Source: Actinomycetota bacterium
GTDB lineage: Bacteria; Actinomycetota; Acidimicrobiia; Acidimicrobiales; Ilumatobacteraceae
NCBI GenBank assembly: GCA_017853375.1
Contig: JAFMJP010000005.1
Coordinates: 1 to 39,510 of the forward strand
DNA length: 39,510 nucleotides
Direction: 5' to 3'
Position 1 is the stretch's first letter. Every line of letters starts with the position of its first letter. Position numbers and translations under genes: made by a program. Positions 5,158-34,017 of the stretch are shown here, one piece after another. The notes below the pieces were generated by a model. It was not told the origin of the DNA and ran no database searches. It saw only the letters and a list, made by a program, of their open reading frames with translations.

Positions 5158-5634
5158 CTACTGAGCCGAGGAAAATCGGCTGGCGAAACCTCGGCGTACC
5201 AGCTCGTTGAACTGTGCTTCAACGGTTGCATACAACGTGCCGATGATTCGATCGAGTTCCGGCTCCACCACTGCACTGAGCACCAACTCTCCGGTGAGGA
5301 ACACGGCACTTTCCGCGCCGAGCGCGTAGTGCGCACCGACGAGACGTTCATTGCGGCGCAAGAGCAACTCGAACACCTCCATGGAGTTTTCCTCCGGATA
5401 CGGCATGACATAGGTTTCGTAGCGAAGTGTGCGCTGACCCAGTCGCAGCCAAATGGTGATGAACTCCTTCGCTTCGCCCCGAAGTCGAACGAGCCAGCGA
5501 TCGGCTTCGTTCGGCGCACGTCCAGCCGACACGGTATTCGGATGCGACTGGTGCACCGTGGCAAGCCACTCGTCGATTCTCCTTTCGAGCGCCGCGCGTT
5601 GACCTTCGTCGAACAGGTTGCTCATGGCGAGCAC
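5158..5634 (-). CDS. YbjN-domain (T3SS-chaperone-like) protein
   Basis: 158 aa from GTG 5634. An ATG three codons in (5625) is an equally good start and gives MSNLFDEGQ. Actinobacterial YbjN proteins adopt a fold like type III secretion chaperones and often follow mshA. The sequence has the typical pattern: an amphipathic N-terminal helix, strands with WLVRLRG and IWLRLGQRTLRYETYVMP, then ELLLRRN and a long C-terminal helix ending near FNELVRRGFA. No catalytic motif is present and no function is established. It lies 13 nt after the mshA stop and 10 nt before proC, so cotranscription is likely. Confidence 0.8.
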   Translation of the reverse strand: MLAMSNLFDEGQRAALERRIDEWLATVHQSHPNTVSAGRAPNEADRWLVRLRGEAKEFITIWLRLGQRTLRYETYVMPYPEENSMEVFELLLRRNERLVGAHYALGAESAVFLTGELVLSAVVEPELDRIIGTLYATVEAQFNELVRRGFASRFSSAQ

Positions 5635-5647
5635 TCAGGCGACATCA

Positions 5648-6874
5648 CTAGCTGCACAGAACGAGGTCGCGAGCCGCAAACTCGGCCACCACGCGACGCA
5701 TACGCATTGCGGCATGCTGCCACGAATACCGCTGACTTCGAATCACTGCTTGGTCGCTCAAGCGGCCCGCGAGATGTGGGTCATCCAATATCCGTGTGAC
5801 CCGATCCGCAAACGTTGCTGCATCACGCTCGGGTACCAGGTAGCCGTTCACATCATCGGTGATCAATGACAACAGTCCACCCACCGCAGTGGCAACTACC
5901 GGGGTTCCGCATGCCGAAGCCTCGAGAGCCACGAGCCCGAAGCTTTCGCTGCGTGACGGCACGAGTACCACATCGGCCGCGCGATAGTAGGAGGACAATA
6001 GGTGATGCGGCTGAGGATCGATGAAGCGCACTCGACTTGACACGCCGAGTTGTTCGGCCAACCCCACGACGCGCGCATATTCCCTGTTTCCCTCAATGCC
6101 ACTGGCACCACCCACCACGAGCAACACGGCATCGTGGTGCGGAAGTGCAGCGAGTGTCTCGATGGCAACATCAAGTCCCTTCAGAGGCTGTATGCGCCCG
6201 ACGAACAACAGCACGGGGTGTTTGCCGAGACCAAGTGCGCTGCGCGCACCAGCTCGACTTCCCGGCGAGAAAAACGCACGGTCCACCCCAGGGGTGATGA
6301 CTTCCACCGTTCCCGGTGATGCGCCGTACAACCGGCGAAACTGCTCACGCTCCTCTTGGCATGAAACGAAGATTGCGTCGCTACAACCGATGATGGACGA
6401 CTCGATTTTCTCCCGATCAACGGACTCGGCGTCACCGTGGAGAGTCTTCACCCGCGCCAACGTGTGGAAGGTGGTGATGAGTGGCAGGTTCAGGTCGTGC
6501 TTCAGGTGGTGTCCGGACAAACCCGAGAGCCAGTAATTGGCGTGGATCACGTCGGCCGGCGCATGCGTACGGAGATGGTGGCTCACCGTGTCCGTGAATT
6601 CCGGAACGATGTCGACCAGTTGCTCTTTTGGCAGATCAACATCACCTGCGCGCACATGGACGAGTCGATGATTCGGCTCGATCTCCACCACGTCGGGCAA
6701 GCCGTGTTTCCATGCGCGCGTATAGGTGGTGCACTCGACACCCAGACGTGCCAATGACGACGTGAGTTCACGCACGTACACGTTCATGCCCCCTCCGTCA
6801 CCGACGCCAGGCTGGGCAAGTGGCGACGTGTGCAGCGACAGCACGGCGACGCGCTGCGCAGGTGAAGCTGCCAT
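5648..6874 (-). CDS. mshA: D-inositol-3-phosphate glycosyltransferase (mycothiol synthesis)
   Basis: 408-aa GT4 retaining glycosyltransferase. It joins GlcNAc from UDP-GlcNAc to 1L-myo-inositol-3-phosphate, the first committed step of mycothiol, the main low-molecular-weight thiol of actinobacteria. Diagnostic features are the N-terminal GGGMNVYVREL loop (about 27-37), HANYWLSG near residue 110, FVGRIQPLKG near 225, and the EX7E region SRSESFGLVALEA near 315. The start codon is ATG, with TAGGTT (6884-6889) ending 9 nt upstream, which suggests a leaderless transcript. The YbjN gene follows closely, as in many actinobacteria. Confidence 0.95.
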   Translation of the reverse strand: MAASPAQRVAVLSLHTSPLAQPGVGDGGGMNVYVRELTSSLARLGVECTTYTRAWKHGLPDVVEIEPNHRLVHVRAGDVDLPKEQLVDIVPEFTDTVSHHLRTHAPADVIHANYWLSGLSGHHLKHDLNLPLITTFHTLARVKTLHGDAESVDREKIESSIIGCSDAIFVSCQEEREQFRRLYGASPGTVEVITPGVDRAFFSPGSRAGARSALGLGKHPVLLFVGRIQPLKGLDVAIETLAALPHHDAVLLVVGGASGIEGNREYARVVGLAEQLGVSSRVRFIDPQPHHLLSSYYRAADVVLVPSRSESFGLVALEASACGTPVVATAVGGLLSLITDDVNGYLVPERDAATFADRVTRILDDPHLAGRLSDQAVIRSQRYSWQHAAMRMRRVVAEFAARDLVLCS

Positions 6875-6922: not shown

Positions 6923-7276
6923 TCAAGGGGTAGAAGTGTCACCAGCCACAAAACTGCGATAGATCGCCAACATCGCCTGCTTTTGGTCGTCATTCAAACG
7001 CTGGTCAGTGGCGATGGCGTCGATCACGGCATTGCCCTGTGACTCCTTCGGGTCGAGCATGCCCGCACGCTCGTAGAGGGTCTCGGCAGAAATCTCCAAA
7101 GCTCGCGCGATTTGCTGCAAAATGTCGGCCGACGGTTTGCGTAAGCCACGTTCGATCTGGGACAAGTACGGATTCGAAACCCCGGCTCGTTTCGCGAGGT
7201 CGCGTATCGATTGCTGGGCAATTTCCCGCTGCTGGCGTATGAACGAACCGAGATCCGGACGTTTTCGGCTGGGCAC
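6923..7276 (-). CDS. XRE-family transcriptional regulator
   Basis: 117 aa, GTG start. A Cro/C1-type helix-turn-helix spans residues about 10-67: FIRQQREIAQQSIRDLAKRA, then SNPYLSQIERGLRKPSADIL and the trailing helix QIARAL. The C-terminal part (75-117) is helical and acidic, with no ligand domain. The architecture matches short actinobacterial regulators whose targets are mostly unknown. It lies 33 nt after the stop of the MoaD-RsiG gene on the same strand, with no obvious -10 box at leaderless distance, so it may be the second gene of that operon. mshA downstream has its own promoter. Confidence 0.9.
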   Translation of the reverse strand: MPSRKRPDLGSFIRQQREIAQQSIRDLAKRAGVSNPYLSQIERGLRKPSADILQQIARALEISAETLYERAGMLDPKESQGNAVIDAIATDQRLNDDQKQAMLAIYRSFVAGDTSTP

Positions 7277-7309: not shown

Positions 7310-8032
7310 CTAGTGACTCTCGTCGAGTAGCGAATCGACATTGGTCGAACCCGCTCGATATCGCCGAACCAACTCGTTGGAGATTGCGTCAATTTGGGCA
7401 AACAACGTCTTTCGTAGGGAAGATACCCGGAACTCGAACTCGGACAACCGTCGACAACAGTTGTCGAGCTCACCGTCGTCGAGCTGTCGCAAGCTCCCGA
7501 AGCCACTCTCCACGCACAGCGCTTCGAGTTCCACCACCAACGGGTGGTCCGCCACCACGGCGGTATCACGCGGTGGACGATTGGATCCCGAACCTCGTTC
7601 TTCGGCAAACACCCGCGCAATCCCGTCGGTGACATCCACATTCGATGCATCGCCACTGCTCCGGCGACGCTGTTCGTCACGGGCGATGTCCAAACGTCCT
7701 TGCGCAAGTCGACGGGCGAACGACACTGCATCTTCTTGTTCTTGCAATGCATTTCGCTCCGCACGTACCTGCTCCAACGACAGAGCAGAAAAGTCGCTGC
7801 CGCCCGACACTGGTGGAAGTACCGCAACTTCGTCTGCGTCGCTCACCCGCGCATCGGGACTGCATTCCTCTCCGTTGAGCCACACCGTGCACGACGCCAA
7901 GACGGCTTCAAACGAGGGACCGAACTGGCGCTTGGCCGTGCTGAGTACTTCCTCAACCGTGGCACCGGCAACGGTGTCGCGAGAAACGCCTGCTGCCTCG
8001 CGTGCTGATGCAAAAAGGAGCAAGCGCGCCAC
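7310..8032 (-). CDS. MoaD/ThiS domain fused to an RsiG-like c-di-GMP-binding domain
   Basis: 240 aa in one uninterrupted frame, GTG start. Residues 1-78 are a MoaD/ThiS ubiquitin-like fold ending in VLPPVSGG (71-78), the Gly-Gly tail that is adenylated and thiocarboxylated in molybdopterin-synthase small subunits. Residues 79-240 are two long helices joined by a variable linker. They contain the RsiG signature E-x3-S-x2-R-x3-Q-x3-D exactly at E100, S104, R107, Q111, D115. A second copy at E200, S204, R207, F211, D215 has Phe in place of Gln. In Streptomyces, RsiG uses such helices to bind a c-di-GMP dimer and hold sigma WhiG. The fusion's role is inference. TACGCT (8039-8044) ends 6 nt before the GTG. 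No separate moaD is seen in the window, while moaE is at 33538. Confidence 0.82.
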   Translation of the reverse strand: MARLLLFASAREAAGVSRDTVAGATVEEVLSTAKRQFGPSFEAVLASCTVWLNGEECSPDARVSDADEVAVLPPVSGGSDFSALSLEQVRAERNALQEQEDAVSFARRLAQGRLDIARDEQRRRSSGDASNVDVTDGIARVFAEERGSGSNRPPRDTAVVADHPLVVELEALCVESGFGSLRQLDDGELDNCCRRLSEFEFRVSSLRKTLFAQIDAISNELVRRYRAGSTNVDSLLDESH

Positions 8033-8075: not shown

Positions 8076-8714
8076 ATGACCCAACTTCATGCCCCGACGT
8101 CCGCAATCGTGATTCGTCACGGTGAGTCGGAGTGGAACGTGCTCGGGAAGTGGCAAGGGCGTGCCGATACCCAGCTGACTCCCGCTGGACGTGCACAAGC
8201 CCGAGCAGCCGCCGAACGACTCCTCGTCGATGGCGTCTCCGTCGACCGAGTTGCGGCCAGCTCCCTCACGCGAGCACGAGAGACTGCAGAGATCATCGCC
8301 ACACATCTGGGGGTTGGCGAAGTGCTCGTCGACGACCGCCTCGTCGAAACCGATGTTGGACCGTGGCAAGGCCTACGAGAGCACGAGATTGAAGCCCGCT
8401 GGCCCAACTACTTGCGTGATCGACGTACTCCCCCACATTTCGAGGCACCCGACCTGGTGTTTGCGCGGGCGGAACAAGCACTGCGCGACCTCATGAGACT
8501 CACTCGTGGTGCCGGACAAACTGCACATCGTGTACTGGTGGTAACACATAGCGGCGTCATTCGTACGGTGAGGCGAGTCATGCAAGTACACGATCGCCGA
8601 CTGCACAATCTCGAGGGTTGCCACTTCACGATCGACGCTGAGGGCAACCTGGTAGCCGGAGATTTCGTGGCTCTCGTGACTCCCTCGCACGTCACCACGA
8701 ACGACGCCGTCTAA
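8076..8714 (+). CDS. Histidine phosphatase family protein (phosphoglycerate-mutase-like)
   Basis: 212 aa from ATG 8076. The longer open frame upstream is antisense to the previous gene. The catalytic RHGE motif is at R14-H15-G16-E17, with the second core Arg near R66, a conserved acid around E91 and the second His at H158 in VVTHSG. All four elements are intact, so this should be an active phosphatase. This group includes broad-specificity phosphatases and, in actinobacteria, glucosyl-3-phosphoglycerate phosphatase (GpgP). True cofactor-dependent mutases are longer. The substrate cannot be assigned. The MFS gene follows 11 nt later, but has its own -10 box overlapping this gene's stop codon. 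Confidence 0.88.
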   Translation: MTQLHAPTSAIVIRHGESEWNVLGKWQGRADTQLTPAGRAQARAAAERLLVDGVSVDRVAASSLTRARETAEIIATHLGVGEVLVDDRLVETDVGPWQGLREHEIEARWPNYLRDRRTPPHFEAPDLVFARAEQALRDLMRLTRGAGQTAHRVLVVTHSGVIRTVRRVMQVHDRRLHNLEGCHFTIDAEGNLVAGDFVALVTPSHVTTNDAV

Positions 8715-33301: not shown

Positions 33302-33541
33302 TTATCTTCCTTGTCGCTGCTCACGGGCAATACGGATTTGCTCACGCAGATGCTCGCGTGAATCGTCTGAAAGCGCATTCAGGTGACGACGAAACTGGGC
33401 GGCTCCGTCCACGGGTTTGTGCCGACGATTGTCGGTTGCCACGAGATAGGCCAGCGTTGCGGCGGATGCGATCGAGATTGATGCGAACACCAAACTGGTC
33501 ACCGAAGTTGCTGCGATGATGAACGCCGATGTGACGATCAT
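33302..33541 (-). CDS. Small membrane protein upstream of mreB
   Basis: 79 aa. An N-terminal hydrophobic segment (about 3-36, probably one long or two short TM helices) is followed by a charged helix with RRHLNALSDDSREHLREQIRIAREQR. Not recognised. Its ATG overlaps the moaE stop (ATGA) and it ends 2 nt before mreB, so translation is probably coupled in both directions. Position and shape would suit an MreB partner that recruits filaments to the membrane, but this is conjecture. Confidence 0.75.
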   Translation of the reverse strand: MIVTSAFIIAATSVTSLVFASISIASAATLAYLVATDNRRHKPVDGAAQFRRHLNALSDDSREHLREQIRIAREQRQGR

Positions 33542-34017
33542 GAAATCACTCGCGTTGAGTCTCGATCAACCGCAGATACCGATACGGGCTCGACCGCGTT
33601 GGTTCCCCAATCGCTGCCGCCACTCCACTCTTCCTTCTTCCAAATTGGAACGGTTTGCTTCAACGCGTCGATACAAAAGCGTGCAGCATCAAATGCCTCG
33701 GGTCGATGCGGGGCCGACACCGCCACCACCACCGATGACTCCGTCAATTGCAGCTCACCGAGTCGGTGAACAAGTGCTACTCGACCGACTCCAGGAAATC
33801 GACGGCGAGCCTCATCGATGACCTCCTGCAGTTTTGCGTGCGCAGCCGTGCCGTACGCCTCGTAGGTGAGCGAGGTCACACCGGTTCGACCCTCCGCATG
33901 ATCTCGCACGGTGCCGGAGAACAGGACTACTGCACCGCATTCCGGGGACAGAGCCCATTGATACAAACTCGCAATGTCGAGCGGCGAGTCTGACACTTCG
34001 ACGCGGTCGTGTCTCAT
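33538..34017 (-). CDS. moaE: Molybdopterin synthase catalytic subunit
   Basis: 159 aa. MoaE converts precursor Z (cPMP) to molybdopterin, using sulfur carried on the MoaD C-terminal Gly-Gly. Landmarks are GAVVLFSGTVRDHAEG (28-43), LTYEAYG (50-56), VHRLGEL (83-89), APHRPEAF with H104 and R105, and the active lysines K120 and K127 in VPIWKKEEW. It is complete. The only MoaD-like domain in the window is fused to the RsiG-like protein 26 kb away, making that fusion a candidate partner. TACGCT (34026-34031) ends 8 nt before the ATG. It heads the mreB operon, which is an odd context. Confidence 0.93.
   Translation of the reverse strand: MRHDRVEVSDSPLDIASLYQWALSPECGAVVLFSGTVRDHAEGRTGVTSLTYEAYGTAAHAKLQEVIDEARRRFPGVGRVALVHRLGELQLTESSVVVAVSAPHRPEAFDAARFCIDALKQTVPIWKKEEWSGGSDWGTNAVEPVSVSAVDRDSTRVIS

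Follow-up and report, generated by a model that had tools for sequence, protein, structure and literature searches.

A MoaD sulfur-carrier domain fused to an RsiG-type anti-sigma factor in Ilumatobacteraceae, a probable further case of a processed MoaD fusion

The window, i.e., the whole stretch of 39,510 nucleotides analyzed here, belongs to a genome of 1.58 Mb that is 87% complete. An open frame of 240 amino acids with a GTG start was found on its minus strand at positions 7310–8032, encoding an N-terminal MoaD/ThiS domain followed by a C-terminal RsiG domain with twin motifs. The parts of this gene and the genes discussed together with it are the following (positions are those of the window; loci are those of 80 relatives):

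7310–8032, minus strand: moaD-rsiG fusion gene, 240 aa, GTG start (open frame and Pfam)
7799–8032, minus strand: MoaD/ThiS domain, residues 1–78, ending in PPVSGG (Pfam ThiS at 5–78; model compared with 6jbz_B)
7799–7804, minus strand: codons of Gly77-Gly78, with the proposed cleavage site between Gly78 and Ser79 (invariant in 13 fusions; pLDDT <50 at 76–78)
7778–7798, minus strand: variable linker, residues 79–85 (sequence and length differ among fusions)
7655–7777, minus strand: RsiG helix 1 (residues 86–126) with the motif E100/S104/R107/Q111/D115 (Pfam, AlphaFold model, alignment)
7349–7477, minus strand: RsiG helix 5 (residues 186–228) with the motif E200/S204/R207/F211/D215 (Pfam, AlphaFold model, alignment)
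6923–7276, minus strand: XRE-type HTH regulator directly downstream of the fusion, likely in the same transcription unit (Pfam HTH_3; such a gene matched near moaD/rsiG in 41/80 loci)
5648–6874, minus strand: MshA-like glycosyltransferase, conserved neighbour (Pfam Glycos_transf_1; 77/80 loci)
5158–5634, minus strand: YbjN-family gene, conserved neighbour (Pfam YbjN; 67/80 loci)
8076–8714, plus strand: divergent upstream histidine-phosphatase gene, phosphoglycerate-mutase-like (Pfam His_Phos_1; 66/80 loci)
33538–34017, minus strand: moaE, the sole MoaE found in the genome and the expected partner of released MoaD (profile match)

The N-terminal part was recognized by the Pfam profile ThiS (PF02597) over residues 5–78 with an E-value of 2.5e-11, which is over the cut-off; the NCBIfam moaD profile (TIGR01682) gave 46.6 bits, below its cut-off of 66.15. 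Structural comparison of this part of the predicted model with mycobacterial MoaD (6jbz_B) yielded Z 13.5 and 1.6 Å over 77 residues. Many residues of the MoaD domain, including all of PPVSGG, were invariant in the alignment of the fusions, and the Gly-Gly pair was invariant in 13 fusions with synonymously varying codons (GGC/GGT/GGA/GGG), unlike the residues that follow it, which vary. MoaD/ThiS sulfur carriers function only with a free C-terminal Gly. In the encoded chain the Gly-Gly is internal and would become free only after a cut. The fusion is also the sole MoaD-type ThiS domain of the genome: the other ThiS matches are a CysO-like protein and the TGS domain of ThrRS, and no further MoaD with a free Gly-Gly was detected among them.

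Residues 79–240 constitute the RsiG part, which matched the Pfam profile RsiG (PF22802) in two stretches (E = 8.6e-25, over the cut-off), with no RsiG match to the fusion in NCBIfam; in the PDB, residues 77–236 matched RsiG of Streptomyces venezuelae best by sequence (6pfj, E = 5.3e-12). The AlphaFold model, computed with a family alignment of 98 rows (mean pLDDT 82, pTM 0.56), comprises a beta-grasp domain and then long helices at 86–126 and 186–228, with low confidence (pLDDT <50) and disorder at residues 76–78 of the Gly-Gly junction; as modeled, the fusion is a chain of two predicted folded domains with a disordered junction. Its RsiG part resembles the antiparallel helix pair of 6pfv_B (Z 12.5, 3.9 Å over 149 residues), and although helical pairs readily give middling Z values, the fold call is also backed by the Pfam and PDB sequence matches. 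A Foldseek comparison matched it to 6pfv_T with E = 7e-6.

The MoaD and RsiG assignments of the initial annotation were therefore borne out by Pfam, PDB sequence matches and the two-domain model, and the translated frame places Gly77-Gly78 and both motif sets at exactly the residues it had named. The twin RsiG signature that it had read from the two helices stands in part. RsiG anti-sigma factors with twin motifs carry E-x3-S-x2-R-x3-[Q/H]-x3-D twice. Here both motif sets are in place and the first is complete, but in the second the Gln of S. venezuelae RsiG is replaced by Phe, and nine of the ten motif residues are kept. Gln and His at that motif position stack on guanine. The Phe of the helix-5 motif (window region 7388–7435) is common to 53 of the 58 family rows of the alignment. 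The published RsiG family (Schumacher et al.) includes Acidimicrobiales, with three of four species (PMC8325347).

The distribution of the fusion was analyzed in 200 genomes of a family in which most named records come from Ilumatobacteraceae or other Acidimicrobiia. A full-length stop-free fusion was present in 11 of 12 further genomes of the same genus, at 68–83% identity; the twelfth match (G119) covers residues 89–237 and ends at a contig edge. Outside the genus, the match was stop-broken or split in two in the genomes compared, except in Desertimonas (G007). Among the 80 named loci, whose ranking, based on resemblance to the fusion, favours adjacent moaD-rsiG pairs, nine were fused (eight from the uncultured genus to which the window belongs, plus Desertimonas flava SYSU D60003, an isolate) and 71 separate. 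In the unfused RsiG-bearing genomes common to both profile lists, the listed positions place moaD immediately upstream of rsiG in 24 cases out of 24. The window and the seven same-genus loci used formed one starred clade in the tree, which needs two changes of state between fused and unfused, and a single clade of all nine fusions was weakly rejected (AU p 0.03, from a quick tree with a long Desertimonas branch). Judging from these sequences, the fusion likely arose twice, in Desertimonas flava separately from the window's genus. Four public MAG records named Bifidobacterium breve (L041, L074, L089 and L090) carry an acidimicrobial moaD/rsiG locus and are apparently misnamed.

The proximity of the two genes extends beyond the family. 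In genomes outside it with both genes listed, moaD and rsiG lay on one contig less than 20 kb apart in 22 of 33, and 21 of these 22 pairs were on one strand with moaD upstream of rsiG; mshA, HTH, ybjN or proC genes often accompany the pair in these Actinomycetota (L207–L219 included), with mshA, ybjN or HTH genes frequently on its downstream side. In two genomes with Streptomyces-like content, no moaD match was found within ~8 kb of rsiG. By gene order, moaD-rsiG is an old gene neighbourhood across Actinomycetota, and for this reason a fusion could arise easily without a functional link between its halves.

Gly-Gly followed by further residues is not peculiar to the fusions. Among the 71 unfused family MoaDs, 66 carry 1–34 residues after PPVSGG (e.g., GGDQ, GGCR, GGC, GGF), and in the remaining five Gly-Gly is the very end. 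As PPVSGG was among the two patterns used to collect the 80 loci, conservation of Gly-Gly in that set is partly due to selection, while the tails were no search criterion. In the ThiS-profile set, each of the 11 unfused MoaDs inspected next to an rsiG was tailed, and so were the MoaDs of the three genomes lacking RsiG (tails G, A and AV); the tails, therefore, do not come merely from moaD overlapping the start of rsiG. Since the carrier needs a free C-terminal Gly, yet most of these MoaDs are tailed, a trimming peptidase is implied. Probably, C-terminal trimming of family MoaDs is ancestral and older than the fusion, which would represent an extreme tail. Some unfused MoaDs have long tails after PPVSGG, namely L110 (6001–6336), L113 (5068–5361), L054 (6001–6270) and L139, with 34, 20, 12 and 34 residues, respectively; they bridge the gap from short tails to the complete fusion. 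Tails are also frequent among the family's CysO-like carriers. The carrier of the window genome (L001, C92:13569–13829) ends in GG-Arg, i.e., would need trimming too, and that of another genome (L159, G148, C10:1746–2006) has its C-terminus copied in tandem (PAVAGGQAVSIVPAVAGGQVVSTAVVVDSER).

The genome encodes partners for both halves. Along with the single MoaE, it has three MoCoBD molybdoenzymes and one clear ThiF-type E1 (at C133), which means that a usable MoaD is needed. A JAMM peptidase (Prok-JAB) gave one strong match each in 39 of 40 genomes; in the window genome (E = 9.1e-24) its Glu and HxHx7SxxD residues are intact. Its gene lies apart from the fusion gene and adjoins a CysM-like gene of the PALP family and a MurI-like racemase gene, a setting similar to the mec-cysO-cysM region of mycobacteria. 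The only genome without a JAMM match (G040, 95% complete), where an assembly gap may be the cause, has a tailed MoaD. As to the RsiG half, a WhiG orthologue (C70:526–1203) exceeded the cut-off of TIGR02479, had 6pfv_A/6pfj_A as its best PDB matches and keeps, by sequence, the K-x3-G-R residues predicted to contact c-di-GMP; two GGDEF proteins are also encoded. In a relative, whiG is located between recombinase and M23-type genes, judged from translated starts. Search of the genome for WhiG-type promoters (TAAA-N15-GCCGATAA, up to two mismatches) gave 16 matches versus 44 in the reversed control, i.e., no regulon signal, and none above chance within the window. Of the genes whose co-occurrence with the fusion was to be checked, whiG and moaE are present and no separate moaD was recognized.

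Considering these facts, we assume, with a probability of about two in three, that the fusion is a polyprotein which a peptidase, probably the genome's one Mec-type JAMM, cuts behind Gly78 into an ordinary MoaD and an ordinary RsiG; the cleavage, its agent and the activities of the products are all inferred. The fusion would have originated when moaD lost its stop and an adjacent or overlapping rsiG its start, and would have been tolerated since MoaDs of the family already had short tails that needed trimming. The chain would be translated as one, which is most likely because no internal start is conserved. The peptidase, most likely the JAMM, would then cut after Gly78 and expose the C-terminus of MoaD, so that MoaD could be activated by the MoeB/MoeZ-like E1 and employed by MoaE, while the freed RsiG would hold WhiG in a c-di-GMP-dependent complex. 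Cleavage at this very position, suggested in the initial annotation, gains support from the disordered junction, the synonymous Gly-Gly codons, the single complete JAMM, the tails and the precedent of MoaX.

In MoaX of Mycobacterium tuberculosis, MoaD is likewise N-terminal, with an internal Gly-Gly and a second functional domain behind it; the next residue is Ser in MoaX and in the window fusion and Ala in most other moaD-rsiG fusions. The cut in MoaX falls between Gly82 and Ser83 and is made by a protease that was not identified; the uncut mutant is inactive, and cutting is only partial in vivo (PMC4326299). MoaX differs in that the partner of MoaD is MoaE instead of an anti-sigma factor, and in being an extra MoaD copy in its genome, whereas the window fusion is the only one. 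Deinococcus radiodurans also combines a linear MoaD fusion (MoaD-MoaE, DR2607) with a JAMM in the genome; there the partner is again MoaE, and the cut by DRJAMM has been demonstrated (PMC8832034), whereas that of the window fusion is deduced. Mycobacterial Mec+ is a hydrolase of CysO-Cys, and CysO and MoaD share MoeZR as their activator (PMC3227635). The window genome is similar in having a CysO-like carrier and a JAMM beside CysM-like and MurI-like genes; the natural substrate of Mec+ is the CysO-Cys adduct, in distinction from the MoaD fusion for which the JAMM is a candidate here. RsiG of S. venezuelae (6PFJ/6PFV) shares with our protein two helices bearing motifs of the E-x3-S-x2-R-x3-Q-x3-D type, of which our protein has the first complete, as well as the predicted fold and the presence of WhiG, and differs in bearing a tail at the N-terminus in place of MoaD and Gln in place of Phe in the second motif.

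It is unlikely, in our opinion, that the protein works uncut, in a form in which MoaD would be held inactive, or RsiG controlled by MoaD/MoaE, so that binding of c-di-GMP or WhiG would regulate molybdenum cofactor synthesis. Persistence of the fusion throughout the genus at 68–83% identity, its apparent double origin, the proximity of moaD and rsiG across the phylum and the partial cutting of MoaX in vivo (PMC4326299) speak for such a form; the inactivity of uncut MoaX (same source), set against the fact that the fusion is the genome's only MoaD, the tails, which imply trimming older than the fusion, and a neighbourhood with mshA, ybjN and HTH genes without evident tie to the molybdenum cofactor speak against it. 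The pattern of loss has the same sense. Of 40 genomes, 35, the window genome included, have both RsiG and WhiG over the family cut-off, two RsiG only, none WhiG only and three neither (Fisher p 0.001, a value that takes no account of relatedness and depends on three losses). The three genomes with neither (G008, G023 and G050, of three genera) retain MoaD, MoaE and JAMM; hence, RsiG follows WhiG and not MoaD. One genome (G002, 96% complete) has RsiG and no WhiG over the cut-off, which may be due to incomplete assembly or to an RsiG that acts on a different partner. The coupling of molybdenum cofactor supply to c-di-GMP signalling, put forward in the initial annotation, is not supported, in view of these RsiG-less genomes and of the age of the moaD-rsiG neighbourhood. 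No report of such a link through MoaD or RsiG was found in the literature searched, and we regard it as possible but unlikely. It is similarly doubtful that regulated cleavage, or an active uncut form, makes one processing step set the supply of usable MoaD and free RsiG together.

There is still less reason to believe that the MoaD part is a mere N-terminal appendage of RsiG, no longer a sulfur carrier, with molybdopterin (MPT) synthesis relying on the CysO-like carrier. This second carrier does exist in the genome, and an uncut MoaD cannot be activated (PMC4326299), but many MoaD residues, all of PPVSGG among them, are invariant in the fusions, and mycobacterial CysO with MoeZR gave no nitrate reductase activity above background in E. 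coli, unlike MoaD1 and MoaD2 (PMC3227635). Separate translation of RsiG from an internal start, with the fusion supplying only a part of it, appears very improbable: in-frame TTG/GTG/ATG codons do follow Gly78 in single genomes, but no such position is kept in all fusions, no obvious and conserved ribosome site occurs in the listed upstream stretches, and MoaD would still exist only as the fusion. An internal RsiG start was rejected on this ground. Finally, an assembly or sequencing artefact that deleted a stop codon, conceivable for a window derived from a MAG, is ruled out by the same two-domain architecture in 11 other genomes of the genus, with linker length changing in frame, and in the isolate D. 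flava.

Taken together, moaD-rsiG is a real domain fusion, for which no paper joining RsiG with MoaD was found in the literature searched, and is best seen as a further, probably processed MoaD fusion. Since MoaD and CysO of the family both frequently have variable residues behind Gly-Gly, the fusion lends itself to asking, in a natural setting, if trimming sulfur carriers is a general task of bacterial JAMM peptidases. If JAMM does trim these carriers, the processing of MoaX-type fusions without an assigned protease could be explained along these lines, a large number of proteins annotated as MoaD and CysO would be precursors, and an anti-sigma factor would be produced within a polyprotein.
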